Source: Peptoniphilus harei
GTDB taxonomy: Bacteria; Bacillota; Clostridia; Tissierellales; Peptoniphilaceae
Assembly (NCBI RefSeq): GCF_900454685.1
Contig: NZ_UATM01000032.1
Coordinates: 1,550,001 to 1,614,000, forward strand
Direction: 5' to 3'
DNA: 64,000 nt
Made by a program: the position numbers and the translations under genes. Positions 4,497-49,636 of this stretch are shown piece after piece. The notes under the pieces are model-generated. The model saw nothing but the letters and a program-made list of their open reading frames with translations, did not search any database and had not been told where the DNA came from. How positions within the stretch are numbered: the stretch's first letter is position 1; the number at the start of each line of letters is the position of its first letter.

Positions 4497-6164
4497 TTAT
4501 CCAAAAATTGTTTCTAAGAAGCTATCAATGTTAAAGTCTTGAAGGTCATCAATGCCTTCTCCAACTCCAATAAGTTTAATAGGAATTCCTAGTTCTGATT
4601 GAAGGGCAACAACCACCCCACCCTTTGCAGTTCCATCAAGTTTTGTAAGAGCAATTCCTGTTATGTCAGTTGCTTCTCTAAAGGTCTTAGCTTGGTTAAT
4701 TGCATTTTGACCTGTTGTTGAATCAAGAACTAATAGATTTTCACGGTTTGCTTCTGGATACTTATTAGTGATAATTCTGTTAATTTTTTCAAGTTCCTTC
4801 ATTAGATTAGACTTGTTGTGAAGTCTTCCCGCTGTGTCAACTATTAAGACGTCAGTCTTTCTTGCCTTAGCAGCTTCTATTGCGTCAAAGACAACTGCTG
4901 CAGGATCAGACCCTTCAGCGTGACTGATTATATCTACGTGAGCCCTATTTCCCCATTCCTTTAATTGGTCAATGGCTGCTGCCCTAAAAGTATCAGCTGC
5001 ACAAACAAGAACTGACTTGCCATCTCTTTTGAATCTTGAAGAAAGCTTACCAATAGTTGTTGTCTTTCCAACACCATTTACTCCAACTACCAAGATGATT
5101 ACAGGTGGTTCTGTATTAATTTGAGTGTTTAGGTCTGGGTTCATTAATTTCTTTGCTTCTGCCATTAGAAGTGGTTTAACTTCTTGTGGATCATTTATTT
5201 TTTCTCTTATAATTGTTTCACGCAAGTTGTCAATTAACTTCATTGTCGTTTCCATTCCAATATCTGCTGATATTAAAATGTCTTCCAGGTCTTCAAGCAT
5301 TTCGTCATCAATCTTGACATAGGCCCCTAGGACTGTGTTAATTTTTATTCCTACTTCTTTTCTAGTCTTATCCAGACCTTCCTTTAGTCTTTGGAAGAGT
5401 GAAACTTTTTTGGGCTCTTCTTCTATTTCTTCTTGCTTTTCTTTCTTATCTTCTAAAGCTTCTTCAACTACTTCATTATCCTTAAAGGCTTCATTTGTAT
5501 CTTCTTTTTTTTCTGAAGTTTCTACTTCTTCTTTAGAAAGATTTCCACTTTCTGAAACATTTTCAAGCTTTTCATGAATGTCTTCTACTTCTGATTGAGT
5601 TTCTTCTTGCTTTTCTTCCTTATCTTCTAAAGCTTCTTCAACTACTTCATTATCCTTAAAGGCTTCATTTGTATCTTCTTTTTTTTCTGAAGTTTCTACT
5701 TCTTCTTTAGAAAGATTTCCACTTTCTGATACTTCTTCAAGTTTTTCATGAATGTCTTCTACTTCTGATTGAGTTTCTTCTTGCTTTTCTTCCTTATCTT
5801 CTAAAGCTTCTTCAACTACTTCATTGTCCTTAAAGGCTTCATTTGTATCTTCTTTTTTTTCTGATGTCTCTACATCTTCTTTAGAAAGATTTCCACCTTC
5901 TGATACTTCTTCAAGTTTTTCATGAATTTCTTCTGCTTCCGCTTGAGTTTCTTCTTGAGCAGGTTTTTCTTTCTTATCTTCTAAAGCTTCTTCAACCACT
6001 TCATTGTCCTTAAAGACTTCATTTGTATCTTCTTTTTTTTCTGATGTCTCTACATCTTCCTCAGAAAGATTTCCCTCTTCTGAAACTTCTTCAAGTTTTT
6101 CATGAATGTCTTTTGTTTCTTCAGAATCTTTTTTCTTAAATTTATCTTTTAACCAATTAAACAT
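4497..6164 (-). CDS. ftsY: SRP receptor FtsY with long repeated acidic extension
   Basis: Membrane-associated GTPase that receives Ffh-ribosome complexes. The C-terminal ~300 residues are a normal NG domain: GVNGVGKTTTIGKL near residue 365, DTFRAAAIDQLKEW, DTAGRL and TKLDGTAKGG. The N-terminal ~245 residues are unusual: a basic start MFNWLKDKFKKK, then four near-identical acidic units of 58-60 residues beginning IHEKLE. FtsY commonly has an acidic A region, but such tandem units are not typical. Start chosen at ATG 6164, behind AGGTGATAGAT; an in-frame GTG at 6173 lies in the binding site. It follows smc by 9 bases. Total 555 residues, against about 300-330 for short Gram-positive FtsY. Confidence 0.96.
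   Translation of the reverse strand: MFNWLKDKFKKKDSEETKDIHEKLEEVSEEGNLSEEDVETSEKKEDTNEVFKDNEVVEEALEDKKEKPAQEETQAEAEEIHEKLEEVSEGGNLSKEDVETSEKKEDTNEAFKDNEVVEEALEDKEEKQEETQSEVEDIHEKLEEVSESGNLSKEEVETSEKKEDTNEAFKDNEVVEEALEDKEEKQEETQSEVEDIHEKLENVSESGNLSKEEVETSEKKEDTNEAFKDNEVVEEALEDKKEKQEEIEEEPKKVSLFQRLKEGLDKTRKEVGIKINTVLGAYVKIDDEMLEDLEDILISADIGMETTMKLIDNLRETIIREKINDPQEVKPLLMAEAKKLMNPDLNTQINTEPPVIILVVGVNGVGKTTTIGKLSSRFKRDGKSVLVCAADTFRAAAIDQLKEWGNRAHVDIISHAEGSDPAAVVFDAIEAAKARKTDVLIVDTAGRLHNKSNLMKELEKINRIITNKYPEANRENLLVLDSTTGQNAINQAKTFREATDITGIALTKLDGTAKGGVVVALQSELGIPIKLIGVGEGIDDLQDFNIDSFLETIFG
5430..6107 (-). repeat. Four tandem coding repeats in ftsY
   Basis: Four in-frame copies of a 174-180 base unit encode IHEKLE..VSE.GNLS, then ETSEKKEDTNE, then FKDNEVVEEALEDK. 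Copies 2 and 3 differ at only a couple of residues. The first copy is two codons longer (KPAQEETQAEAEE). The DNA is nearly as conserved as the protein, which indicates recent duplication or ongoing gene conversion. The copies lie in the acidic region of FtsY. Confidence 0.9.
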
Positions 6165-6173
6165 ATCTATCAC

Positions 6174-36755: not shown

Positions 36756-39689
36756 TTATAAATAATCCCTTAATAGCTTGTGAGACCTTATAAAATTAAT
36801 GTAATCTAAAAATTCATCCATTACTTCTTTATATTTTTCTTCACTTGTCTCTACAAGTATTTTATTTTTACCCCTTAGGTCAAATATATATGCAGCTTTC
36901 ACTTTAACTTTATATAGCTTTTCATAGATTGCCGAATAAAGTATTAATTGTTTTTCATAAGTCTTCTTTAACTCCTCTTCATCGAGGGTACTAGTTTTGA
37001 AATCAACAATAAAATATTCGCCATTTATTTTTATGACTTGGTCAATGTAACCCTTTACAAGGAATCCTTCTAAGTCGTAGTAAAATAAAAGCTCTTTATC
37101 TATTATAACCTTTTCTTCCATTTCTAGATAGTTCAAAGCTAGTTTTCTTGAAATATTTAATTTTTCTTCTGTCAAACCTTCTTCATAATATGTGAAAATT
37201 TCTTTTAAGTCTTCATCAATATTTTTATCTTCTAGTAAGCTTTGGTCTCCACCATACTTATAGGCGAAGAAGTGAATAATATTTCCCAGAGTCTTGGGGT
37301 CCATAGCTTGACCCTTTCCTTGACCCATGGTGTAGTTATCAATGCCCAAGAAATATTTGTAATAAAAATCCTTCTTGCTTCTGTCGAAATTAATGAAGTC
37401 TGTGACTGTATAATACTCCCTAATCCTATTGTCAAACTTTAGGTCTAGATTAAGAGGTAAATAATTCTTTTCTTCTTCTTTTACTTCTAAGTTTGAAAAT
37501 TCATATTCTTTTAGGCCTGAAAGATCTCCCAGAAGTAAAAAATAAGATCCAGCTCTTGCCTTTTCTAAATTACCAAATAAAATTAATTCCTTTTTTGCCC
37601 TAGTCATTGCGACATATAGGACCCTAATTTCTTCTTCCTCATCAATTGTCCTTAACTTATTAGATATCTCCCTATAGGAATAATTTGAAAGTTTAGAATT
37701 AATTCCAAGCCCCAAGTCCTTGTCCACAAGAATTCTATTTGTCTTTCCATATTTTTTTCCCTTATCCATGTGGGATATTATCAGCCCATCAAACTCAAGA
37801 CCCTTAGACTTGTGAATTGTTAAGAGATTAATCCCATCTTCAAGGTCTTCAAAGGTCATGGAAGAAATTTGTCTTTCAAAAGACCTGTAGTCCTTGGAAT
37901 TATTTTCCACAAAATCTCTTGCTAGATCCTTAAAATTATAAATATATTCCCAATCAATTTCCCTTAAAGTTCCAAGACCATAAAAATAATTCATTATCTC
38001 TTCAATTACTTCATCAAGCATGAGGTAAGATGATTTTTCTCTTGTGTCTTTTATAAAGTTTAAAAATTCTTTTATATTTTTATCTGTGGACTTGTAAGCT
38101 AATAGGTCCTCTGAATTATCAATTCCTTGGTTTAAAATCTCAATTAGATCTTTGAAATCAAAATCCAAGAGATTGGAGTTAAAAAGAGACAAAAAATTTA
38201 AAAAGTCTTTTGGACTATAAATTGCAGATAAAATATTTTTAATAAGCCTCAAGACTTCAATCTCGTCAAGCCTTCTCTCACCCTTGTTAAATTTTATCTC
38301 GCCTTGGGATAAAATTTTTCCAATTTCATCTATTTGAGCATTGGATCTTGAAAGGATGGCAATGTCTTTTGCATCATATTTTTTTAATAAGTCCTTAACT
38401 AAATCAAGGAGCTCAGCATATTCAGGGGTGTTGTAGAGATAAACTCCTCCCCCATAATTGTTGAAGGATTCCATCTCGTCATAGGGCTCAATTAAGTCCT
38501 TAAATTTTTCATTTACAAAGTGGATAATCTCTTCATCAGACCTATAGTTCTTGTTCATTAAAAGGGTCTCTCCCCTTTTTTCAATGTCTTCTGAAAAAGA
38601 AAAGTAAGATGATAGGTCTGTCCCCCTGAAGGCATAGATGGACTGCTTGGGGTCACCAACTATAAATATGTTGGAAGAAGAAAAGACGCGTATAATGTCA
38701 TTTTGGATCTCGTTTGTATCTTGGTATTCATCAACTAATATGTAGGAATACTTTTCTATCAATTCACTTTTTACAATTGGATTTTTTAAAAGTATATGAC
38801 AGTAAAAAATTATATCGTCATAATCTAGGCCCCTAATTTCTTCTTTAGATTCTTTATAAATTCTGTCTATTGACTTTAAAATTTTTATAATAATTTCGTA
38901 GTAAGCTTTGTTATTATCTTCTAAACCTTTTTTTAACTCTTGAATGAGATCTTTTATCTCTAGAATTTTATCATTTTCTTTTTTTGAACTACCAAGATTT
39001 TCTTCTATTTCACTTAAAACTTCGCCATCAAAGGACACAAGGTCTCTTAAATTTTCAATATTAGAATCATAAAATCCCTTAAACTTCTTTCCACTAACTT
39101 GCCTATATTCATCTAAAAGATTAATTAAGTCTTGGAAGGTCTTTTCTGATGTATCAAAGTTCAAAGATTTCTTTAAAATATCATCAAAATCTAAATTATT
39201 ATTTTTAAAATCTCCATAAAGATTTATAAAATTATTTACTTCTTCAAAGGGTGATGTTTTAAAATCTAATAGGTAATCCTTAAATTTTTCATCTTCAATC
39301 TCATTTAAACTTTCCTTAACGGCTTCTTCCAAAAGATAAGCAGACTCTCCATCATCAAGAATCTTAAATTTTGGATTTATGCCTAAAATATAAGAATAGG
39401 ATTCCACTATCTCGAGAGCAAAGGAGTGGATAGTCATTATGTTAAGGTCCTTATCTTCATAATCTATCCTATTTAAAACAAGGTCTTTTGAAATCCTAGC
39501 TCGCATTTCTTCTGCAGCTTTTTTAGTAAAAGTTATAGCAAGAACTCTTAGGGGTTTGACTTTATTTTTTACAATATTAATAAACCTATTGGTGAGAACC
39601 CTGGTCTTACCAGTACCGGCTCCCGCCATTAGGTTTACATCTTTGTCTAGAGTTGTGACAGCTTTTTTTTGAACTTCACTTAGTTCCAT
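36756..39689 (-). CDS. UvrD/RecB-like helicase with C-terminal nuclease domain (AddA-like)
   Basis: 977 residues. Superfamily 1 helicase motifs in order: AGAGTGKTRVLTNR near residues 22-35, LVDEYQDTNEIQ, VGDPKQSIYAFRG, LTIHKSKGLEFDGLI and YVAMTRAKKEL. A RecB-type PD-(D/E)XK nuclease ends the protein (GYIDQVIKINGEYFIVDFKTS). This is the layout of AddA, the Bacillota double-strand break resection helicase-nuclease, though somewhat shorter than the usual ~1200 residues, and no AddB gene lies next to it. ATG start with AAAAGGTGTTTTT. Preceded by arsR (14-base gap). Confidence 0.88.
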   Translation of the reverse strand: MELSEVQKKAVTTLDKDVNLMAGAGTGKTRVLTNRFINIVKNKVKPLRVLAITFTKKAAEEMRARISKDLVLNRIDYEDKDLNIMTIHSFALEIVESYSYILGINPKFKILDDGESAYLLEEAVKESLNEIEDEKFKDYLLDFKTSPFEEVNNFINLYGDFKNNNLDFDDILKKSLNFDTSEKTFQDLINLLDEYRQVSGKKFKGFYDSNIENLRDLVSFDGEVLSEIEENLGSSKKENDKILEIKDLIQELKKGLEDNNKAYYEIIIKILKSIDRIYKESKEEIRGLDYDDIIFYCHILLKNPIVKSELIEKYSYILVDEYQDTNEIQNDIIRVFSSSNIFIVGDPKQSIYAFRGTDLSSYFSFSEDIEKRGETLLMNKNYRSDEEIIHFVNEKFKDLIEPYDEMESFNNYGGGVYLYNTPEYAELLDLVKDLLKKYDAKDIAILSRSNAQIDEIGKILSQGEIKFNKGERRLDEIEVLRLIKNILSAIYSPKDFLNFLSLFNSNLLDFDFKDLIEILNQGIDNSEDLLAYKSTDKNIKEFLNFIKDTREKSSYLMLDEVIEEIMNYFYGLGTLREIDWEYIYNFKDLARDFVENNSKDYRSFERQISSMTFEDLEDGINLLTIHKSKGLEFDGLIISHMDKGKKYGKTNRILVDKDLGLGINSKLSNYSYREISNKLRTIDEEEEIRVLYVAMTRAKKELILFGNLEKARAGSYFLLLGDLSGLKEYEFSNLEVKEEEKNYLPLNLDLKFDNRIREYYTVTDFINFDRSKKDFYYKYFLGIDNYTMGQGKGQAMDPKTLGNIIHFFAYKYGGDQSLLEDKNIDEDLKEIFTYYEEGLTEEKLNISRKLALNYLEMEEKVIIDKELLFYYDLEGFLVKGYIDQVIKINGEYFIVDFKTSTLDEEELKKTYEKQLILYSAIYEKLYKVKVKAAYIFDLRGKNKILVETSEEKYKEVMDEFLDYINFIRSHKLLRDYL

Positions 39690-39703
39690 AAAAACACCTT
39701 TTA

Positions 39704-39985
39704 TTACTTAGTGAAAAGTGCACTAGCTAGCTTCAAAATAAATTCATTTTCAACCTTATAATAAATCTCTGTTCCATTTCTTCTTGATATTAAAACACCA
39801 GCCCTCCTAAGCTTGCCTAGGTGAGACGAAACAGTTGGTTGTGGAATATGAAATTTTTCTTGTAGTGATCCCACATTAGAAGGACCATTATCGATTAAAC
39901 TCTTTATAATCTTTAGCCTAATTGGATGGGCCATGACCTTTAAAACCTCAGCAGTATTCTCAAGGTTGTCATTTTTGGTTTTCAT
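39704..39985 (-). CDS. ArsR-family transcription regulator
   Basis: 93-residue winged-helix protein: VLKVMAHPIRLKIIKSL, recognition helix region IPQPTVSSHLGKLRRAGVLISRR, wing NGTEIYYKV. There is no cysteine at all, so the classical ArsR/CadC cysteine metal site is absent and the inducer is unknown. ATG start behind GGAGGCAAAAA. First gene of arsR-helicase-CoA-transferase; it may repress its own operon. Confidence 0.9.
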   Translation of the reverse strand: MKTKNDNLENTAEVLKVMAHPIRLKIIKSLIDNGPSNVGSLQEKFHIPQPTVSSHLGKLRRAGVLISRRNGTEIYYKVENEFILKLASALFTK

Positions 39986-40042
39986 TTTTTGCCTCCAAGC
40001 ATATATTTATTTTTCTTTATTGGTAATTACTTTACTATAGTT

Positions 40043-40071
40043 AGATTATGTAATTTTTATGAATTTGTCAA
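40043..40071 (-). promoter_or_regulatory. Promoter of the arsR-helicase-CoA-transferase unit
   Basis: -35 TTGACA (40071-40066), 17-base spacer, -10 TAATCT (40048-40043). The palindrome ACTATAGT lies just downstream at about 40034-40041, at the predicted start of transcription, a possible site for the ArsR protein. Confidence 0.75.
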
Positions 40072-40148
40072 TAGTTTTTGTATAAATATAAATTATGAAA
40101 ATATTTCCATTAGCTTAAAATACAATTCTAACATTGTACTTTTTTACA

Positions 40149-40176
40149 AAAAAAATAAGGCCCATGACCTTATTTT
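40149..40176 (-). terminator. Terminator after argH
   Basis: Minus strand AATAAGG-7 bases-CCTTATT followed by T8, a few bases after the argH stop. Confidence 0.88.
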
Positions 40177-40182
40177 AAAAAT

Positions 40183-41553
40183 TTATATATTTAATGATTT
40201 TTTTAGATTTTCAATTTGAACAGTGACTGCTTCTTCAGCTGGTCCTCCATAAACTTTTCTATTTTTTAAAGAATTTTCAATTTCTATAAAGTTATAAAGA
40301 TCTTCTTCAAAAATCTTGTTAAAATTCTTATATTTTTCAAGAGAAATTTCTTCTAATTTTAAATTTTCTTCTATAGCATAATTCACGATTTTACCAACTA
40401 AGTCATAGGCTTCTCTAAAGGCAAGTCCCTTTAGGACCAAATAGTCTGCTAAGTCTGTGGCATTTAAGAATCCTTTTTCTGCTGAATCTCTCATCTTATC
40501 CTTGTTTAGTTCGAGGCTTTCAATAATTCCCTTCATAATTTTTAATGAAGAAGAAGTCGTCTTTACTGAGTCAAATAAGGCTTCCTTATCTTCTTGAAAG
40601 TCCTTATTGTAGGCTAATGGCGTTCCCTTTAAAATTGTAAAAACTGTTATTAAATCTCCAAAAGTCCTTCCACTCTTTCCCCTTATTAATTCTGCCATAT
40701 CGGGATTTTTCTTTTGAGGCATTATAGATGACCCTGTAGAAAATTTGCCAGAAAACTTAATATAATCATATTCACTAGATGAAAAATAAATTAATTCTTC
40801 GCAGAGTCTTGATAGGTGGGTCATAATAAGAGAGTTGTTAAATAAAATCTCAAGAACATAGTCCCTATCTGAAACTGAATCCATGGAGTTCTCTGTGGGC
40901 TTTTTAAATCCCAAGATTTCACTAGTCATAAACCTATCTATGTCGAAACTTGTTGTGGTAAGGGCACAAGATCCTAAGGGATTCTCATCTATTCTAAGAA
41001 GACTATTGTTTAACCTCTCAATATCTCTTTTAAACATCTGACCATAGGCAAGGATATAATGAGCAAAGCTAGTAACTTGTGCATGTTGCATGTGGGTAAA
41101 GCCTGGCATTATTGTGTTTTTGTTTTCCTCAGCAAGTGAAATGATTGCTTTTATAAGATTTTTTAAATCCTTATTAATTTCAGCTAAAACTTTCTTAGAA
41201 TATAACTTAAGGTCTAGGGCACACTGGTCATTTCTAGATCTTGCAGTGTGAAGCTTCTTACCCACACTGCCCACTCTTTTTGTCAGTTCATTTTCCACAA
41301 AAGAATGAATATCTTCTTCCTTTAAATCTATTTCAAGTTTTTTAGACTTTATTTCTTCTAAAATATTTTTTAGTTCACTAGCTATAATTTCAAAGTCTTC
41401 TTGGCCAATTATTCCTTTTTTACTCAACATCTCAACATGAGCAAGTGAACCAGTGATGTCTTCTTCGAATAAAATTTTATCAAAATCTATTGACTTATTA
41501 AATTCATGAGTAAATTCTTCCAGTCCTTCTAAATGAGATCCCCATAAATACAT
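40183..41553 (-). CDS. argH: Argininosuccinate lyase
   Basis: Last step of arginine synthesis: argininosuccinate to arginine and fumarate. 456 residues from ATG 41553 (MYLWGSHLEGLEEF), behind AAAGGAGTTTAAT. Family blocks HTARSRNDQCALDL, MPGFTHMQHAQ, DSVSDRDYVLE and the signature loop GSSIMPQKKNPD are intact. It starts 1 base after the argG stop, with its ribosome binding site inside argG, so its translation would normally depend on ribosomes finishing argG. Confidence 0.97.
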   Translation of the reverse strand: MYLWGSHLEGLEEFTHEFNKSIDFDKILFEEDITGSLAHVEMLSKKGIIGQEDFEIIASELKNILEEIKSKKLEIDLKEEDIHSFVENELTKRVGSVGKKLHTARSRNDQCALDLKLYSKKVLAEINKDLKNLIKAIISLAEENKNTIMPGFTHMQHAQVTSFAHYILAYGQMFKRDIERLNNSLLRIDENPLGSCALTTTSFDIDRFMTSEILGFKKPTENSMDSVSDRDYVLEILFNNSLIMTHLSRLCEELIYFSSSEYDYIKFSGKFSTGSSIMPQKKNPDMAELIRGKSGRTFGDLITVFTILKGTPLAYNKDFQEDKEALFDSVKTTSSSLKIMKGIIESLELNKDKMRDSAEKGFLNATDLADYLVLKGLAFREAYDLVGKIVNYAIEENLKLEEISLEKYKNFNKIFEEDLYNFIEIENSLKNRKVYGGPAEEAVTVQIENLKKSLNI

Positions 41554-41554
41554 A

Positions 41555-42776
41555 TTAAACTCCTTTATTGATCTTAGCTTCAACTAGGCTTGCTAGTGAA
41601 TAGAGGTTTATAAATCCATCTGCATCCTTGTGAGAGAATAAATCTTCTGCCCCATCGCCAAAGGAAGCTAAGTCTTCGCTATAAAGTGATTTGTCTGCTT
41701 CTACTCCTGCTGGTATAATATTTCCCTTGTAAAGTTTTAATTTCACCTTACCTGTAACATTTTTTGTGATTTCATTTCCAAAAGCCAAAAGTCCCTTGAT
41801 AGAATTTGAATACCACTTTCCATCATAAACTAAATCGGCAAACTTTATAGAAAGATAGTCTTTTAAGTGGGCTGAGTCCTTATCAAGAGTAATAGATTCA
41901 AGAATTTCTAGAGCCTTATAAAGGATAGCTCCACCTGGATTTTCATAAACTCCACGACTCTTCATGCCAACTAGACGATTTTCTACAATGTCATCAATTC
42001 CAATTCCATTTTCTCCACCAATTTTATTTAAGTAATTTAAAATTTCTGCAGGTGTCATTTCCTTGCCATTTATTTTTTTTTGCTTCGGCAGCTTCAAATT
42101 CAATTTCCACATCGCAAACTTCATCCTTTGCCTTCATTGGAGATACAGACAGTTCTAAAATTTTGTCGTAGTCTGGGAAGTTTTTTGGATTTTCAAGGTC
42201 TAAGCCTTCGTGAGACAAGTGCATAATATTTAAATCCTTTGAATAGTTTGTCTCCCTTGATATTTTAAGTGGAATATTGTGGGCTTCTGCATAGTCAATT
42301 TCTTCTTCACGAGATTTTATGTCCCAAATTCTCCAAGGTGCAATTATTGGCATATCTGGAGCAAAATGTTTAATCCCCATTTCAAAACGAATTTGATCAT
42401 TTCCCTTTCCTGTACAGCCGTGGCAAATTGCATCGCAATTTTCTTTTTCTGCAATTTCAACTAGGGACTTTGCTATAAGAGGTCTTGCTGTTGCAGTTCC
42501 CAAGAGATAATTTTTTTCATACTTTGCACCCATTTTTATAGTTGGAAATACAAAATCTTTTACATATTCTTCTACAAGATCAACTATATAAATCTTCGAA
42601 GCTCCTGTTTTAATAGCCTTCTCTTCTAGGCCTTCAAGTTCTTTTTCTTGACCAACATTTCCCACTACTGCAATAACCTCACAATTATAATTTTCCTTTA
42701 ACCAAGGAATAATAATTGACGTATCAAGGCCACCTGAATATGCTAGAGCAATTTTTTTATAATTAGTTTTTTTCAT
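41555..42776 (-). pseudogene. argG: Argininosuccinate synthase, interrupted by a one-base frameshift
   Basis: ArgG joins citrulline and aspartate (ATP-dependent). The first part, from ATG 42776 behind GGAGGATAAAA, has the PP-loop [13 protein letters not shown] and [14 protein letters not shown]. It continues in frame to [11 protein letters not shown] near 42075 and then runs into a nonsense tail ending at about 42024. The expected continuation [20 protein letters not shown] to the end lies in another frame that stops at 41555. The break is in a run of nine A (minus strand, 42081-42073); eight A would restore one ~406-residue protein, the normal length. It could be a real inactivating mutation, an assembly error, or a site tolerated by transcriptional slippage. 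Behind an arginine T-box. Confidence 0.93.
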
Positions 42777-42843
42777 TTTTATCCTCCAAATTAAATCTTT
42801 AATATTACAACAGCTAACTTTGAGACTCAAAAAAAGTATAAAA

Positions 42844-43058
42844 AAATCGCCCCTATCAAGGGACGAAGAACGTGGTACCACCCAAATTTGTATATTTCTA
42901 TACCTCAAAAACTATAACGCATAACCGGGCAAATCTAAATATCGAGATGCCAGTTCCAAGCTCCTATTTCAAATTATCCTCCCTATTTTCTCCCAGCAAA
43001 CGAAAACTCTCTTTAAGTCTTGGATAATTTTACTTCGCTTTTCAAAACTTTTGATTTG
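42844..43058 (-). promoter_or_regulatory. Arginine T-box leader of argGH
   Basis: T-box sequence GGGTGGTACCACG (42871-42883 region) is followed by a terminator hairpin TCGTCCC / GGGGCGA and T7. In Stem I the helix AATTATCC / GGATAATT sits above an internal loop whose 5' side has AGTA; below it AAGC pairs with GCTT. The 3' side of the loop ends AATAGGA, so the codon followed by one purine and then the helix is AGG (42965-42963), arginine. Uncharged tRNA-Arg would favour read-through into argG. Confidence 0.85.
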
Positions 43059-43064
43059 TTTGAT

Positions 43065-43093
43065 ATCCTAGCAAGATAATTTTTGTTTGTCAA
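43065..43093 (-). promoter_or_regulatory. Promoter of the argGH leader
   Basis: -35 TTGACA (43093-43088), 17-base spacer, -10 TAGGAT (43070-43065). Confidence 0.85.
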
Positions 43094-43227
43094 GCATATT
43101 TTTAAAAAAATTTTGTAATTTATCAAGTTAAAATAATTCTATCTATTAAATGCAAAGAAAAATTAATTTTAAAATTTTTTGAATTTTATATCTCTCAAAA
43201 TATTTTTTAATTTTTTTATAAAAACTA

Positions 43228-43256
43228 TTGACAAAAATAATTTATCGTAGTAGAGT
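43228..43256 (+). promoter_or_regulatory. Promoter of the amino-acid ABC transporter leader
   Basis: -35 TTGACA (43228-43233), 17-base spacer, -10 TAGAGT (43251-43256). Divergent from the argGH promoter, about 135 bases away. Confidence 0.82.
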
Positions 43257-43262
43257 GTTCAG

Positions 43263-43476
43263 AAATCAATGAAGTGGACAAAAAGTATTTTCAGAAACTT
43301 TTTAGAGAGCAAGGTTAGGTGAAAGCTTGCAAGTGAAAGGAATATAATAGAACCACTGAGATTCTGTAAGGAAATTAGTATTTACAGAGGTTAACTGCCT
43401 TAAAGTTTTGAGATATCCAAAAGATAATTAGAGTGGTACCGCGGACTTCGCCTCTTTCATAGAGGCGATTTTTTTA
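43263..43476 (+). promoter_or_regulatory. Arginine T-box leader of the ABC transporter
   Basis: T-box AGAGTGGTACCGCGG (43430-43444) then a terminator TCGCCTCT-TTCAT-AGAGGCGA with T7. In Stem I GTGG (43274-43277) pairs with CCAC (43353-43356), AGTA lies on the 5' side of the specifier loop, and the distal part has the GAGAGC...GGTGAAAGC elements. The 3' side of the loop is AATAGAA directly before CCAC, giving specifier AGA (43349-43351), arginine, followed by A. The same reading frame of the fold gives AUC for ileS, which supports the method. Confidence 0.87.
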
Positions 43477-43492
43477 TTATGGAGGGAAAATT

Positions 43493-44302
43493 ATGAAAAA
43501 AATATTAAGTATATCAAGTCTTATTTTACTAGTATTAATATTCGGCCTTGTAATATTTTTTACTAAGTCCAAGGACATTTCTAATTCAAGATTAGATGAA
43601 ATAAAAAAATCAGGAAAAATCGTCATGGGTTGCAATGCAAACTACCCACCTTTCGAATTTCACAAAAATATAGATGACAAAGACGAAATCCTTGGCCTTG
43701 ATGTTTTTATTGGAAAGGAAATAGCAAAAGACCTTGGTGTTGAACTAGAAATTTCAGACATGGAATTTTCATCAGTTCTTGCAAGTCTAGATACAGGTGT
43801 TATTGATCTAGCTATCTCTGGAGTTTCAAAGACTCCTGAAAGAGAAAAGTCCATGGCCTTTTCAGATGTTTACTATGAACCTAAAAATTATTTATTAGTC
43901 AACAAAGAAAATCTTGGCAAGTACACTAAAGAAGATGATGTAAAAGACCTCACTATTGGAGTTCAAACTGCAACTAGCCAAGAAGATATTGGAAAAAATT
44001 TGGGCATTAAAAAGTTAGTGTCCTTACCTAAGACACCAGACCTAGTTGCCCAACTTGACAAGGGTCTTATTGATGGGATTATCGTAGAAAAATGTGTTGG
44101 CGATAATTATGAGCTTTCCAATGAAAATTTAAAAATTGAAGATTCTTTTTACTTTAAAGCTGAACTTCAAGGGACAGCCATTGGACTAAATAAAAATGAC
44201 ACAGAACTTTTAGACCAAGTTAATAAAACTCTAAAGAGATTAAAAGTTGAAGGTAAACTAGATGAATATTATCAAGAAGCCTTAGATTTATCTACAAAGT
44301 AG
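43493..44302 (+). CDS. Amino-acid ABC transporter substrate-binding protein (probably arginine)
   Basis: 269 residues of the family 3 (polar amino acid) binding proteins: VMGCNANYPPFEF, LGLDVFIGKEIAKDLG, DLAISGVSKTPEREKSMAFSD. The N-terminus has one hydrophobic segment (about residues 5-23) but no lipobox cysteine near it, so it is probably anchored by an uncleaved or normally cleaved signal rather than lipidated. ATG start with GGAGGGAAAATT. The Arg-specific T-box makes arginine (or a precursor) the likely ligand. First gene of a three-gene transporter. Confidence 0.92.
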   Translation: MKKILSISSLILLVLIFGLVIFFTKSKDISNSRLDEIKKSGKIVMGCNANYPPFEFHKNIDDKDEILGLDVFIGKEIAKDLGVELEISDMEFSSVLASLDTGVIDLAISGVSKTPEREKSMAFSDVYYEPKNYLLVNKENLGKYTKEDDVKDLTIGVQTATSQEDIGKNLGIKKLVSLPKTPDLVAQLDKGLIDGIIVEKCVGDNYELSNENLKIEDSFYFKAELQGTAIGLNKNDTELLDQVNKTLKRLKVEGKLDEYYQEALDLSTK

Positions 44303-44309
44303 GTGGACC

Positions 44310-45110
44310 ATGGAAAATATTTATAAAATCGAAAATAAAAAACTTTCTAAAAATAATATAATTAATGGTCTAGTTATTTTTGGATTTTTAATATTTATCT
44401 TAATCTTTGGAAAATTATTAATGGAGTTCTTTGGATCTAGCTTGGAAATTTTAAAAAATTATTCATCTTACTATCTAAAAGGACTTTTGGTTACAATTTC
44501 ACTTTCATTAATTTCTGTAATCCTGGGCTCCATCTTTGGACTCTTCTTATACCTTATGAAGTCATCAGAAATAAAAAGTTTAAAGGTTTTTGCCTCTTGC
44601 TATCTTGAACTTGTCAGAGGAACTCCAATGCTGACTCAGGTATTTTTTATATTCTTTGGTCTAGCAAGTATTGTAGACTTTAAAAGCTTTGGACTTTCTA
44701 TTTCTTCTTTTGCATATATAACAGGAGTTATTGCAGTGAGTTTGAACTCTGCCGCCTACGTTGCAGAAATTATAAGATCAGGTATCAATGCCATTGACAA
44801 GGGGCAAATGGAAGCTGCCAAATCTCTTGGTATGAAAAAATCTCTTGCCATGGAAGAAGTTATACTTCCCCAAGCTACAAAAAATATTTTGCCAGCCTTG
44901 GCAAATGAATTTATAGCAGTCATTAAGGAAACATCTATTATTTCAACAATTGGTGTGACTGATATTATGTATAATGTCAACCTTGTTAGGGGATCATCTT
45001 ATAAGGCTCTTGAACCTCTAATACTTGGGTCGCTTCTTTATTTCGCCATTACCTTTACTTTGACCAGATTATTAAAATTTATGGAGGGAAAATATGATAA
45101 AAATTCATAA
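44310..45110 (+). CDS. Amino-acid ABC transporter permease
   Basis: 266-residue HisM/GlnP-type permease with about five membrane segments. The permease signature is clear: ELVRGTPMLTQVFFIFFG, then EIIRSGINAIDKGQMEAAKSLGM, the EAA-like loop that contacts the ATPase. It starts 7 bases after the binding protein and overlaps the ATPase gene by 17 bases. Confidence 0.95.
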   Translation: MENIYKIENKKLSKNNIINGLVIFGFLIFILIFGKLLMEFFGSSLEILKNYSSYYLKGLLVTISLSLISVILGSIFGLFLYLMKSSEIKSLKVFASCYLELVRGTPMLTQVFFIFFGLASIVDFKSFGLSISSFAYITGVIAVSLNSAAYVAEIIRSGINAIDKGQMEAAKSLGMKKSLAMEEVILPQATKNILPALANEFIAVIKETSIISTIGVTDIMYNVNLVRGSSYKALEPLILGSLLYFAITFTLTRLLKFMEGKYDKNS

Positions 45111-45814
45111 TTTACAAAAATCCTTTGGAGACAAAAAAGTCCTCAAGGGGATTGATCTTACTATAGAAGATTTCACAGTAACATCCATTATTGGCGCCAG
45201 TGGTTCTGGCAAGTCCACCCTACTTAGGTCCATTAATCTCTTGGAAAAAAGTAATGGCGGAGAAATTTATCTCGATGAATATGAAATTACTGGCGAAAAT
45301 CCAAACCTAGAAAAAATAAGACAAGAAATTGGCATGGTATTTCAAAATTTTAACCTCTTCCCCAATAAAAGTGTTCTAGAAAATATTACTCTTGCACCAA
45401 TAAAGGTTAGGGGTGAAGATAAAAAAAAGTGCAGAAGAAAATGCCATAAGCCTTTTAAAGGCCATGGGACTTGAAGACAAAAAAGATTTTTATCCGGACT
45501 CCCTTTCTGGCGGTCAAAAACAGAGGGTTGCAATTGCTAGAGCCCTTGCAAATAAACCCAAGTATCTCTTATTTGATGAGCCAACATCAGCCCTTGACCC
45601 AGAAATGGTAAAGGAGGTTTTAAACGTTATAAAATCCTTAAAGGACAAGCTGACAATGGTAATTGTCACTCATGAAATGGGGTTTGCAAAGGAAATATCT
45701 GATAATATAGTCTTTATGAAGGATGGATTAGTTGAAGACTATGGCAGCCCTCAGCATATTTTTAAAGATACAAATAATTTAAACACAAAAAAATTCTTAG
45801 AAGCCGTCTTGTAA
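45094..45814 (+). pseudogene. Amino-acid ABC transporter ATPase, interrupted by a one-base frameshift
   Basis: ATPase of the GlnQ/HisP type. The first frame (ATG 45094) has Walker A GASGSGKST and Q-loop MVFQNFNLFP, then runs out of frame after VRGEDKK. The rest (SAEENAISLLKAMGLEDK, LSGGQKQRVAIARAL, Walker B YLLFDEPTSALDP, VTHEMGFAKEI) is in the next frame and ends at 45814. The break is in a run of eight A at 45421-45428; seven A would give one protein of about 239 residues, the family size. As it stands no complete ATPase is made unless slippage corrects the frame. Confidence 0.92.
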
Positions 45815-45875: not shown

Positions 45876-48800
45876 TTACATTTTTTCTATATTTATTTTT
45901 ATGTCGTGACCATTTAGGTTTTCAACTTCTGCATCATTGTCTTCATTAACAACTTCAAGAGCAAGAGTTTCTGACTTAATAAATTCCTTGTCAGCTTCAA
46001 TAGCTTTTTCAACTTCATCGTCAGACTTATAAGAAATTTTTATGTTGTCAAGAATGTCTAGGTCTTTTTTCTTTCTAAGTTGTTGGATCTTTGATACAAA
46101 TTCTCTTACATAACCTTCATTTAAAAGTTCTTCGTTAAGTTCTGTATCTAAGATTATAAAGAGGTTATTTTCCATTATTACGTCGAAGCCTTCTTTTGCA
46201 GAAATCTTAACTTCAACATAATCTCTTTCAATTTCTGTTTCTTCTCCACCAAGTTCAAGACTTACTTTTCCTTCTTCAAGTTTTCCAAGTAATTCTTTTG
46301 CATCAGCTTCTCTTAAAACTTTGCCAAATTCTTTAACCTTTGAACCTAAAATACTTCCACAAACTCTGAAGTTTGGTTTAAGTTCAAATTCCATAAATTC
46401 TGAAAGGTCTTCTTCGAATTGAACTTCTTTTACATTAAGCTCTTCTTTAATAAGTTCAGTTAAGTCGCCAATGATTTCCTTATACTTTCCGTCGATGATT
46501 ACCTTAGAAAGTGGTTGTCTAACCTTGATCTTAGCTTCTTCTCTTGATGCTCTTCCTAGAGTTACAAGATCTCTTACAAGGTCCATTTTTTCTTCAACCT
46601 TGTCGTTAATCATGTTTTCATCATAAGTTGGATAGTCAGCTAAGTGAACTGATTCTTCATCTGTAAGTGACTTAAATAATTCTTCTGCTAGGAATGGAAC
46701 CATAGGTGCAATTAACTTCGTAACGCCGAGTAGGACTTCATAAGTTGTCTTGTATACTGCAACCTTAGTGTTGTCCTTGTCAGTCTTCCAGAATCTTCTT
46801 CTATTTCTTCTGATATACCAGTTGGAAATATCTTCTATTACGAAGTCTTGGATTTCTCTTACAACTTTTGTAAGTTCGAATGCATCCATATCTTCTCTTA
46901 CAATTTTAACAAGTCTATTGTACTTAGACAATAACCACTTGTCGATTTCTTCAAGGTCGTCATAAGAAACTTTTACTTCTCTTGGGTCAATCTTATCTGT
47001 ATTTGCATATAGACTGAAGAAGTTGTAAGTGTTTCTTAAAGATCTAAAGAATTTTGATTCAATTTCACGAAGTCCATCTTCATCGAATTTTGTTGGAGTC
47101 CATGGTGGAGATACATAAAGTAGGTACCACCTAACAACGTCAGCACCATACTTGTCAAAGAGCTCAAAAGGTGCAACTGTGTTGCCACGTGATTTTGACA
47201 TCTTCTTGCCTTCCTTATCAAGGATAAGGTCGTTAACAAGTACATTCTTATAAGGACTCTTGCCTGTCATGTAAGTTGATATTGCAATAAGAGAGTAGAA
47301 CCAACCTCTTGTTTGGTCTATCCCTTCACAAATAAAGTCTGATGGGAAAAGTTCATCAAAGTTGTCCTTGTTTTCAAATGGATAGTGCCATTGAGCAAAA
47401 GGCATAGCACCAGAGTCGAACCAAACGTCAATTACGTCTGCTTCTCTTGTCATTGGTTTTCCACACTTAGGACACTTAAGGTGGATGTCATCAACATAAG
47501 GTCTATGAAGTTCAACATCTTCTGCCACATCTTCTATGGCCTTATTTCTCAAATCTTCAATTGAGCCAACAGATTCTGTGTGACCACATTCACATCTCCA
47601 AATTGGAAGTGGAGTACCCCAATATCTTGATCTGGAGATTGCCCAGTCATTTAAGTTTTCTAGCCAGTTGCCAAATCTCTTTTCTCCAACAAAGTCTGGG
47701 AACCAGTTAACTCCATTGTTGTTTTCAATTAGTTTATCCTTGAACTTAGTTACTTCTATATACCATGATGGGTGAGCGTAGTAAATAAGTGGAGTGTGAC
47801 ATCTCCAGCAGTGTGGATAGTTGTGAAGCATCTTTTGTTTTGAGAACATAAGATTATTGTCAATTAAATAGTGAAGAACATCGTGGTCAGCATCAATTAC
47901 AAATTGACCCTTCCAAGGTGTGTCTGTAAACTTACCATCTTCATCAACTGGTTTTAGCATTGGTAGGTCATATCCCCTTGCAGTTTGGTAGTCATCTTCA
48001 CCAAAGGCAGGAGCAATGTGAACTATACCAGTACCATCATCAGTTGTTACATAATCAGCACAGATTACAAAGAAGGCCTTCTTGTCAACTTCTAGGAATT
48101 TAAGAAGTTGTTCATATTCTATATACTCAAGGTCCTTGCCAAGCATCTCTTCTAAGACTTCATATTCATCATCTTTAAATACTTGCTTTGCAAGTGACTT
48201 AGCTACATAGTAAATATTTCCGTCAGAGTGCTTAACTTTTATATATTCAACCTTAGGGTTGACAGCAAGGGCAACGTTAGATGGAAGTGTCCATGGAGTA
48301 GTTGTCCATGCCAAGAAGTATTCATTATCCTTGTCTTTTAATTTAAATTTACAAGTTGCTGTTGTGGTTTTGATTTCTTCATAACCTTGAGCAACTTCGT
48401 GAGATGCAAGTCCAGTACCACATCTTGCACAATAAGGAACTATTTTGTGACCTTCATAAATTAGGCCGTCCTTAAACATCTTATCAAGTATGTGCCAAAC
48501 TGATTCAATATAATCATTTTCAAGAGTTATATAAGGATGGTCTAGGTCAGTTAAGTATCCCATTCTTCTTGTAAGCTTTCTCCATTCCTTTTCATATTCG
48601 AAAACAGATTCTCTACATTTTTTATTAAAGGCTTCAACACCATAGGACTCAATGTCTTGCTTGTTGTGAAGTCCTAATCTTTTTTCAACTTCAATTTCTA
48701 CTGGAAGACCATGTGTATCCCAACCAGCTTTTCTCTTAACTTGGTAACCAAGCATTGTATGGTATCTACAAGTCAAGTCTTTAAGAGTTCTTGCCATGAC

Positions 48801-48977
48801 ATGGTGGATGCCTGGCTTACCATTTGCTGTTGGAGGTCCCTCATATAAGATATAATTTTCTCCGTCTTTTCTTGTTTCAACAGATTTGTGTAGAAGATCT
48901 ATTTCGTCCCAAAATTTTGAGACATTTTCTTCTCTAACACTTACACTGTCTTTAGATAATTCTTTAAATACTTTCAT
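45876..48977 (-). CDS. ileS: Isoleucyl-tRNA synthetase, type 2
   Basis: Charges tRNA-Ile. 1033 residues. The N-terminal active-site region reads YEGPPTANGKPGIHHVMA (residues 45-62) instead of the type 1 DGPPYANGxIHIGH; this and the overall pattern place it in the eukaryote-like IleRS2 group. The HIGH tetrapeptide is replaced by GIHH (56-59). The editing domain (TTTPWTLPSNVALAV), KMSKSRGN and the anticodon-binding domain are present. IleRS2 enzymes are naturally less sensitive to mupirocin. ATG start; preceded by an Ile T-box. Confidence 0.97.
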   Translation of the reverse strand: MKVFKELSKDSVSVREENVSKFWDEIDLLHKSVETRKDGENYILYEGPPTANGKPGIHHVMARTLKDLTCRYHTMLGYQVKRKAGWDTHGLPVEIEVEKRLGLHNKQDIESYGVEAFNKKCRESVFEYEKEWRKLTRRMGYLTDLDHPYITLENDYIESVWHILDKMFKDGLIYEGHKIVPYCARCGTGLASHEVAQGYEEIKTTTATCKFKLKDKDNEYFLAWTTTPWTLPSNVALAVNPKVEYIKVKHSDGNIYYVAKSLAKQVFKDDEYEVLEEMLGKDLEYIEYEQLLKFLEVDKKAFFVICADYVTTDDGTGIVHIAPAFGEDDYQTARGYDLPMLKPVDEDGKFTDTPWKGQFVIDADHDVLHYLIDNNLMFSKQKMLHNYPHCWRCHTPLIYYAHPSWYIEVTKFKDKLIENNNGVNWFPDFVGEKRFGNWLENLNDWAISRSRYWGTPLPIWRCECGHTESVGSIEDLRNKAIEDVAEDVELHRPYVDDIHLKCPKCGKPMTREADVIDVWFDSGAMPFAQWHYPFENKDNFDELFPSDFICEGIDQTRGWFYSLIAISTYMTGKSPYKNVLVNDLILDKEGKKMSKSRGNTVAPFELFDKYGADVVRWYLLYVSPPWTPTKFDEDGLREIESKFFRSLRNTYNFFSLYANTDKIDPREVKVSYDDLEEIDKWLLSKYNRLVKIVREDMDAFELTKVVREIQDFVIEDISNWYIRRNRRRFWKTDKDNTKVAVYKTTYEVLLGVTKLIAPMVPFLAEELFKSLTDEESVHLADYPTYDENMINDKVEEKMDLVRDLVTLGRASREEAKIKVRQPLSKVIIDGKYKEIIGDLTELIKEELNVKEVQFEEDLSEFMEFELKPNFRVCGSILGSKVKEFGKVLREADAKELLGKLEEGKVSLELGGEETEIERDYVEVKISAKEGFDVIMENNLFIILDTELNEELLNEGYVREFVSKIQQLRKKKDLDILDNIKISYKSDDEVEKAIEADKEFIKSETLALEVVNEDNDAEVENLNGHDIKINIEKM

Positions 48978-49020: not shown

Positions 49021-49222
49021 AAAAAAGCCCCTTCTCAAAAGAGAAGGGACGAACTAACCGCGGTACCACCCTAATTATAGGAAACTATCACTTAATATTA
49101 TAACGCAAAATAGCGCAAGAGCTTTTGACTCTTGGGCTCCGAGGTGATATGTAAAATTTCGAAAGGCAGTTTTGCACCAACCAACTGTTCTCTTACTTTC
49201 TAGAAGTTACCGTCCTCATCAA
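49021..49222 (-). promoter_or_regulatory. Isoleucine T-box leader of ileS
   Basis: T-box AGGGTGGTACCGCG (49059-49072), then terminator CCCTTCTC-TTTT-GAGAAGGG with T7. Stem I base pairs GAGG / CCTC; the specifier next to it is AUC (49148-49146) followed by A, matching isoleucine and the gene it controls. The distal GTTGGTTGGTG element is present. A promoter was not clear: TATAGG at 49230-49225 is a possible -10 inside the end of the Rrf2 gene. Confidence 0.93.
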
Positions 49223-49225
49223 AGC

Positions 49226-49636
49226 CTATATGAAATTGTCAATTGTTTGACTTTTAAACATTTTAATTATTTCTGATTGCATACCAGCAAGTGCCACATG
49301 GAATTTACAGTGTCTTGTATCTCCTTCAGGGTGCTTGCTGCAGAAAGATTCTTCTTCTTGTAGACACCTATTGATTACAATAGGGCCATCTACAGCTATA
49401 AGTATATCATATAAAGTGATTTCTTCCTTGGGTTTATTTAAAAAATATCCGCCCTTAGATCCCCTCTTCGCATCTGTAATACCAGCTAAGTTTAATTTTC
49501 TAAGGATTCTAAGTGTAAATCTTTTTGTAACACCTTCGCTCTCAGCAATTTGTGGTGCTCCAATTACCTTTCCCTCGTTCTTAGCAAGATAACTTACAAT
49601 ACGAAATGCATAGTCTGTTTCTTGTGTTATTCTCAT
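49226..49636 (-). CDS. Rrf2-family regulator with three clustered cysteines
   Basis: 136-residue Rrf2/IscR-type winged-helix regulator: MRITQETDYAFRIVSYLA, recognition region GVTKRFTLRILRKLNLAGI, wing RGSKGGYFLNKP. Three cysteines follow in INRCLQEEESFCSKHPEGDTRHC (CX7CX10C), the place where IscR and NsrR bind an Fe-S cluster, so it probably senses iron-sulfur status, oxygen or NO. ATG start with AGGTGATAAT. Its end abuts the ileS leader with no terminator between. Confidence 0.92.
   Translation of the reverse strand: MRITQETDYAFRIVSYLAKNEGKVIGAPQIAESEGVTKRFTLRILRKLNLAGITDAKRGSKGGYFLNKPKEEITLYDILIAVDGPIVINRCLQEEESFCSKHPEGDTRHCKFHVALAGMQSEIIKMFKSQTIDNFI

Follow-up and report, generated by a model that had tools for sequence, protein, structure and literature searches.

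Genes and leaders at the locus

The window (the whole stretch of 64,000 nucleotides of Peptoniphilus harei DNA that was analysed) contains an operon in which an ABC ATPase gene lies with an SBP_bac_3 substrate-binding protein and a BPD_transp_1 permease, as for polar amino-acid ABC transporters, and this ATPase gene (45094-45811) is split by a run of eight A between the Q-loop and the ABC signature. On the opposite strand, argG is split as well. The features are:

43260-43458, plus strand: T-box leader of the transporter operon, specifier AGA (Arg), read by eye
43493-44302, plus strand: substrate-binding protein, intact, SBP_bac_3 family match
44310-45110, plus strand: permease, intact, BPD_transp_1 family match
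45094-45474, plus strand: upstream ATPase fragment, 126 residues, with Walker A and Q-loop, then 14 out-of-frame residues past the run and a stop
45413-45814, plus strand: downstream ATPase fragment, 133 residues, in the other frame, with signature, Walker B and H-loop, and an out-of-frame GTG start
45421-45428, plus strand: run of eight A (A8) where the frame breaks, net +1 relative to five orthologues
42856-43054, minus strand: T-box leader of argGH, specifier AGG (Arg), read by eye
41555-42788, minus strand: argG in two frames (ORFs 42024-42908 and 41555-42124)
42073-42081, minus strand: run of nine A (A9) at the argG frame break, net +1; A10 and A9 in a second contig, C26
40183-41583, minus strand: putative argH, an intact ORF downstream of argG, named by context and by eye

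The best NCBIfam match of the substrate-binding protein is of the lysine/arginine/ornithine type, under its cut-off, and each half of argG matches argininosuccinate synthase models. T-box specifiers were read, by a rule applied by eye, as the triplet that precedes the conserved A and the pairs after it; on the same rule, three relatives (L138, L139 and L140) also have AGA before the transporter and AGG before argG. The T-box leaders with their Arg-type specifiers make the arginine context credible, and the claim of the initial annotation that both breaks sit in arginine-controlled operons was thereby borne out. A third T-box leader (49042-49231), with an AUC-type (Ile) specifier by eye, lies upstream of a minus-strand gene of 1033 residues (45876-48977).

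The frame break and its absence from relatives

The plus strand at 45418-45432 reads 'gataaaaaaaagtgc', with the A8 run in the context 'ggtgaagataaaaaaaagtgcagaagaa'. Five motifs, which we take by eye to be Walker A, Q-loop, signature, Walker B and H-loop, are all found, spread over the two frames. In a profile search, the two fragments match opposite halves of the GlnQ, TcyN, EhuA and ArtP models (for GlnQ, with 240 positions, the upstream fragment covers 1-118 and the downstream one 110-239). The run falls at codon 110 of about 239, that is, about 46% into the gene and not near the 5' end or promoter, and a single frame results only if one base is skipped or lost, or if two are added.

Five full-length orthologous operons were found among 13 other genomes of the genus. 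A contig search named as close relatives Peptoniphilus timonensis, P. phoceensis, P. faecalis, P. lacydonensis and a Peptoniphilus MAG; these named loci and the orthologue genomes were treated as one set, and hence we count five relatives, not ten. In all five orthologues the ATPase is in a single frame, with one base fewer in the stretch of the run, which there encodes D-E-K-S-A and has no A run longer than five; neither a slippery A8 run nor a split ATPase gene occurs in any of them. These data, together with the ORFs, confirm what had been read from the letters before (eight A at 45421-45428, one more than needed, splitting the ATPase between Q-loop and signature), and they supply the run lengths in relatives that the initial annotation had proposed to survey. 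Among four more distant loci, the A8 run is absent from three (in rough alignments) and the fourth is unaligned over the run. The downstream frame of the window has K-K-S-A versus E-K-S-A in the relatives, and therefore the run would have grown by a substitution, either earlier than the extra base or along with it.

The argG break was correctly described as being of the same kind: its A9 run is one base longer than the same stretch in the five relatives aligned. The run encodes lysines, whereas the five relatives have a non-lysine stretch before N-G, without a run, and solved ArgG chains have V-A-L-N-G, A-V-N-G or A-I-N-G at the break site. Several substitutions to A accompany the extra base at 42073-42081. 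Since no A run longer than five is found in the five relatives, the ATPase tract would be new to this lineage, and, as judged from the alignments, both the ATPase and the argG tracts are new relative to the five sister species.

The genes around the breaks are not degraded. Against a sister genome (G012), dN is 0.100 and 0.101 for the two ATPase parts, 0.095 for the binding protein and 0.064 for the permease; values between sister species are alike, and both ATPase parts and argG are within that range, which rules out pseudogene decay. Selection on both sides of the ATPase break thus looks intact at the sequence level, and the break should therefore be very recent, not real, or harmless. The mutS and mutL genes are open frames with scores above the model cut-offs; a mutator strain is rejected as far as tested, and none is needed or implied. 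Related permease and ATPase matches occur elsewhere in the same genome, PADLOC matches were taken as generic ABC/AAA matches, and a scan of viral contigs found no relative of the locus.

Homopolymer runs and frameshifts along the chromosome

The window has 15 A/T runs of at least eight, of which 14 lie inside ORFs of at least 120 codons and one in no such ORF; 12 of the 14 show no break at the run and two are at frame breaks. A general homopolymer fault is thus ruled out for the window, as had been argued from other A8 runs being in frame, although this does not extend to sporadic errors, which are still possible. In an ftsY-like ORF (4497-6173), the N-terminal array of acidic repeats contains four A8 runs, none of which breaks the open frame. 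A8 is rarer than expected by chance (16 matches versus a shuffle mean of 69, both strands, overlaps counted), and two sister genomes show the same steep fall between A7 and A8. The ATPase run is uncommon, not unique: 0.8 Mb of the chromosome has 51 A8 runs on the coding strand.

We surveyed frameshifts by tblastn of the ORFs of two sister genomes, G012 (0.8 Mb) and G006 (0.4 Mb), against 1.2 Mb of the chromosome. A frameshift was called wherever two adjoining collinear pieces lay in different frames, and the summed scores of the halves were compared. Best matches cover 649 kb. Eight sites were called and six internal ones kept, those at 1145911 and 1473833 being left out as near start codons. 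The six (names by eye, apart from the last) are:

chromosome 930805: IS200-like transposase, net +1
chromosome 1254820: small CYTH-like protein, net -1, the only one of the six that is not +1
chromosome 1281230: miaB, net +1, in an A-rich stretch with A7, just upstream of mutS and mutL
chromosome 1442563: large protein with a VWA-like end (646 residues in G012), net +1 at A7, with the break near the C-terminal part
the remaining two: argG (A9) and the ATPase (A8) of the window, both net +1

The predominance of +1 (five of six) is not significant (p 0.22). In the reverse direction, no internal site was left in G012 of four called over 622 kb (292886, 411208 and 739559 are near starts, and 511504 mirrors the miaB site), and up to three of six were left in G006 over 212 kb (33787, 35240 and 302694, the first two at low identity; 216837, 235466 and 350509, near gene ends, were left out). 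Breaks at A runs of at least seven number four of about 506 here versus none of 764 in G012 (p about 0.025, with an approximate denominator: 455 A7 and 47 A8 covered runs plus the four breaks, miaB being counted as an A7 break even if its extra base could sit in a neighbouring A run). By run length, about two breaks are at A7 (455 covered), one at A8 (47 covered) and one at A9. That is, the breaks roughly follow run length, with a modest excess over G012 and not clearly over G006. Four of the internal frameshifts in the sampled chromosome lie outside arginine genes; arginine control is therefore not their common factor, and any hint of a special or shared mechanism is unsupported.

Assembly quality and a second contig

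The assembly has 36 contigs, and the window is in one of 1.87 Mb. Contig C26 (10751 bases) is a palindrome, whose first part matches window 39142-45242 in reverse complement and whose second part matches 39065-43857 in forward orientation (98.8 and 98.4% identity, 142 gap positions, seven mismatches). Of 20 small contigs examined, 11 match stretches of the chromosome (0.8 Mb compared; cut-offs 800 bases and 95%), and seven of these are clearly palindromic, with scattered single-base gaps (L150, L153, L154, L155, L159, L162 and L163). Four others (L146, L157, L161 and L164) have many mismatches and look like diverged repeats, L164 being two-way like the palindromes but diverged; they are included in the tallies of run differences. 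From the palindromes and their scattered single-base gaps we infer long reads with missed adapters, and hence an assembly that looks long-read; palindromes are described in long reads after amplification (PMC6218980). The palindromic contigs may inflate the contamination estimate of 3.52%.

Against the chromosome, A/T runs of seven to eight in the small contigs are one base shorter in 24 cases and one longer in five, agree in 139 and are unclear in seven. C26 covers the argG run twice, reading A10 and A9, not A8; two overcalls there would have a rough probability of 0.001 if the two passes are independent, which is uncertain. Because C26 reads the run as A10 and A9, the extra base in argG is probably a real mutation. 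No second contig in the assembly covers the ATPase run, C26 ending at 45242.

Alternative explanations

It is possible that the run is in frame in the DNA and was overcalled by one base in a long-read assembly, a serious possibility to which we give somewhat less than an even chance. The palindromic, low-accuracy contigs (seven of the 11 matching small contigs plus C26) are consistent with this alternative, and so is the apparently intact selection on both ATPase parts. The count of internal frameshifts, six over about 0.65 Mb and partly in core genes like miaB and argG, fits a residual error of about one per 100 kb, the usual yardstick being near that value, and none were left in 0.62 Mb of G012. 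Long-read-only bacterial assemblies usually keep errors, mostly in homopolymer length (PMC8812927, on Polypolish), and singleton frameshifts validated by BLAST are expected to be sequencing errors (PMC3711429, on GeneTack). However, the breaks are mostly +1 (even if not significantly so) while the errors visible in the small contigs are mostly -1; a second contig backs a length of at least A9 for argG, the closest analogue; and a long-read-only assembly can be exact, as for one PacBio HGAP/Quiver genome that fully matched its hybrid assembly (PMC7363880). Given that nothing independent covers the ATPase run and that some of the breaks are in core genes, we regard a consensus error as nearly as likely as a genuine mutation, which is barely favored because C26 supports the argG break and the direction of the change opposes that of the visible errors.

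The ATPase tract could be a reversible, phase-variable site caught by the assembly in its off state, given that it is uninterrupted and within the length range (about seven or more) of homopolymer phase variation, that poly-A switches are described for Bacillus subtilis swrA, Mycoplasma hominis vaa-2 and M. fermentans p78 (PMC2831843), and that the argG tract reads both A9 and A10 within one assembly. We consider such a switch unlikely: the tract is absent from the five orthologues and sits mid-gene rather than at the 5' end, the A9/A10 difference may be a read error, and mutS and mutL are unbroken. Switch genes are usually of the surface or motility kind as well, and the ATPase and argG are neither. 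If argG and the importer ATPase were paired poly-A switches in young tracts without counterparts in sister species, which seems quite improbable, arginine synthesis and uptake would go off together, reversibly, giving rise to arginine-dependent subpopulations.

Slippage of RNA polymerase or ribosomal frameshifting could, in theory, restore the full ATPase. The A8 and the G after it include A AAA AAG in phase, and homopolymers of at least eight are typical transcriptional slip sites according to PMC3711429. In a reporter study (PMC6260861), slippage by the E. coli polymerase became productive from seven T onward and took a longer run in the case of A, but the study cites remarkably high frameshift bypass in B. 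subtilis, and T6-T9 runs with mostly deletions. Selection on the downstream half also looks intact. Nonetheless, we find such rescue highly improbable as an explanation. A -1 shift yields VQKKMP and then a stop, and no fold that could stimulate a shift lies downstream (z +1.05; 179 of 200 shuffles fold equally well or better), so that ribosomal -1 frameshifting at A AAA AAG was rejected; conserved programmed slippage was rejected too, the run being unconserved in the five orthologues. Further, a +1 run in the DNA needs a base lost from the transcript, yet in E. coli and Buchnera the errors in A/T runs are mostly insertions and deletions are rarely in runs (PMC5574713, Traverse and Ochman), and that genome-wide survey detected no case in which a transcription error put a frame right. 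Rescue may still yield a trace of full-length ATPase, since comparable breaks in Blochmannia may be rescued (PMC3017870). Finally, that the two halves are translated separately and assemble into a working subunit is extremely improbable: the second frame offers a GTG at 45413, preceded at a few bases' distance by AAAGG, but in the relatives this stretch belongs to the normal coding frame, and none of their five orthologues is split.

Recent slippage, the narrowly favored explanation

We lean, at close to an even chance, toward the hypothesis that the ATPase break is a genuine and recent loss-of-function mutation by replication slippage. The case is a single homopolymer indel with intact orthologues, as in recent slippage pseudogenes, and the +1 change runs against the -1 bias of the visible small-contig errors. 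Under this hypothesis, substitutions in this lineage would have turned the conserved D-E-K-S-A stretch into an uninterrupted poly-A tract, which would then have gained one A. Translation would stop 14 codons past the run, such that no ATPase with both Walker A and signature would be made from this gene and the arginine transporter would not be energised by its own ATPase. Peptoniphilus lives on peptones, and the loss would probably be tolerated, with related ABC transporters elsewhere in the genome and arginine obtainable from peptides. That is, we infer an extra base in the DNA, a lost protein and a tolerated loss. Gains from A6 to A7 are more frequent than losses from A7 to A6 in Listeria inlA (PMC2831843), and the same source quotes T8 to T7 losses far above T7 to T8 gains for Campylobacter coli flhA. 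Against slippage, the excess of breaks at A runs is the pattern expected of a long-read-only consensus, and it is biologically awkward for one strain to have lost this importer as well as arginine synthesis.

If real, the break is, along with that in argG, another case of slippage in a dispensable nutrient gene of an AT-rich anaerobe; if not, it is a warning that core genes on a good-looking chromosome contig can be broken by a single base. In both cases, read-level support for the two breaks in one regulon is needed before any biological story is told.

Relation to known systems

The gene belongs with the polar amino-acid ABC ATPases of the ArtP/GlnQ type. One intact orthologue, L138:5785-6501, can be aligned over its full length with 4yms_J, an 'ABC-type polar amino acid transport system, ATPase component', and 4yms chain J and 3c41 chain J are its best solved relatives; unlike these ATPases, the gene in the window has its frame broken between Q-loop and signature. 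It resembles swrA, vaa-2 and p78 in tract length, p78 being also an ABC transporter subunit (PMC2831843), but its tract is mid-gene and its length is known from one assembly of the species. The contigs resembling long-read artefacts recall the homopolymer errors of long-read-only assemblies, although the chromosome contig is mostly in frame here and the direction of the break is +1. Altogether, the ATPase break looks ordinary, a homopolymer indel of one base in a poly-A tract of recent origin and no new way of reading genes. Its likeness is to the poly-A frameshifts of the insect endosymbionts Blochmannia and Buchnera, in which a poly-A tract has likewise changed by a single base although the gene is otherwise conserved (PMC3017870). 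In the same source, some of those frameshifts recur across species or populations and are reported to be rescued by slippage, whereas here GC is 0.32 in 0.4 Mb and the tract is absent from sister species.
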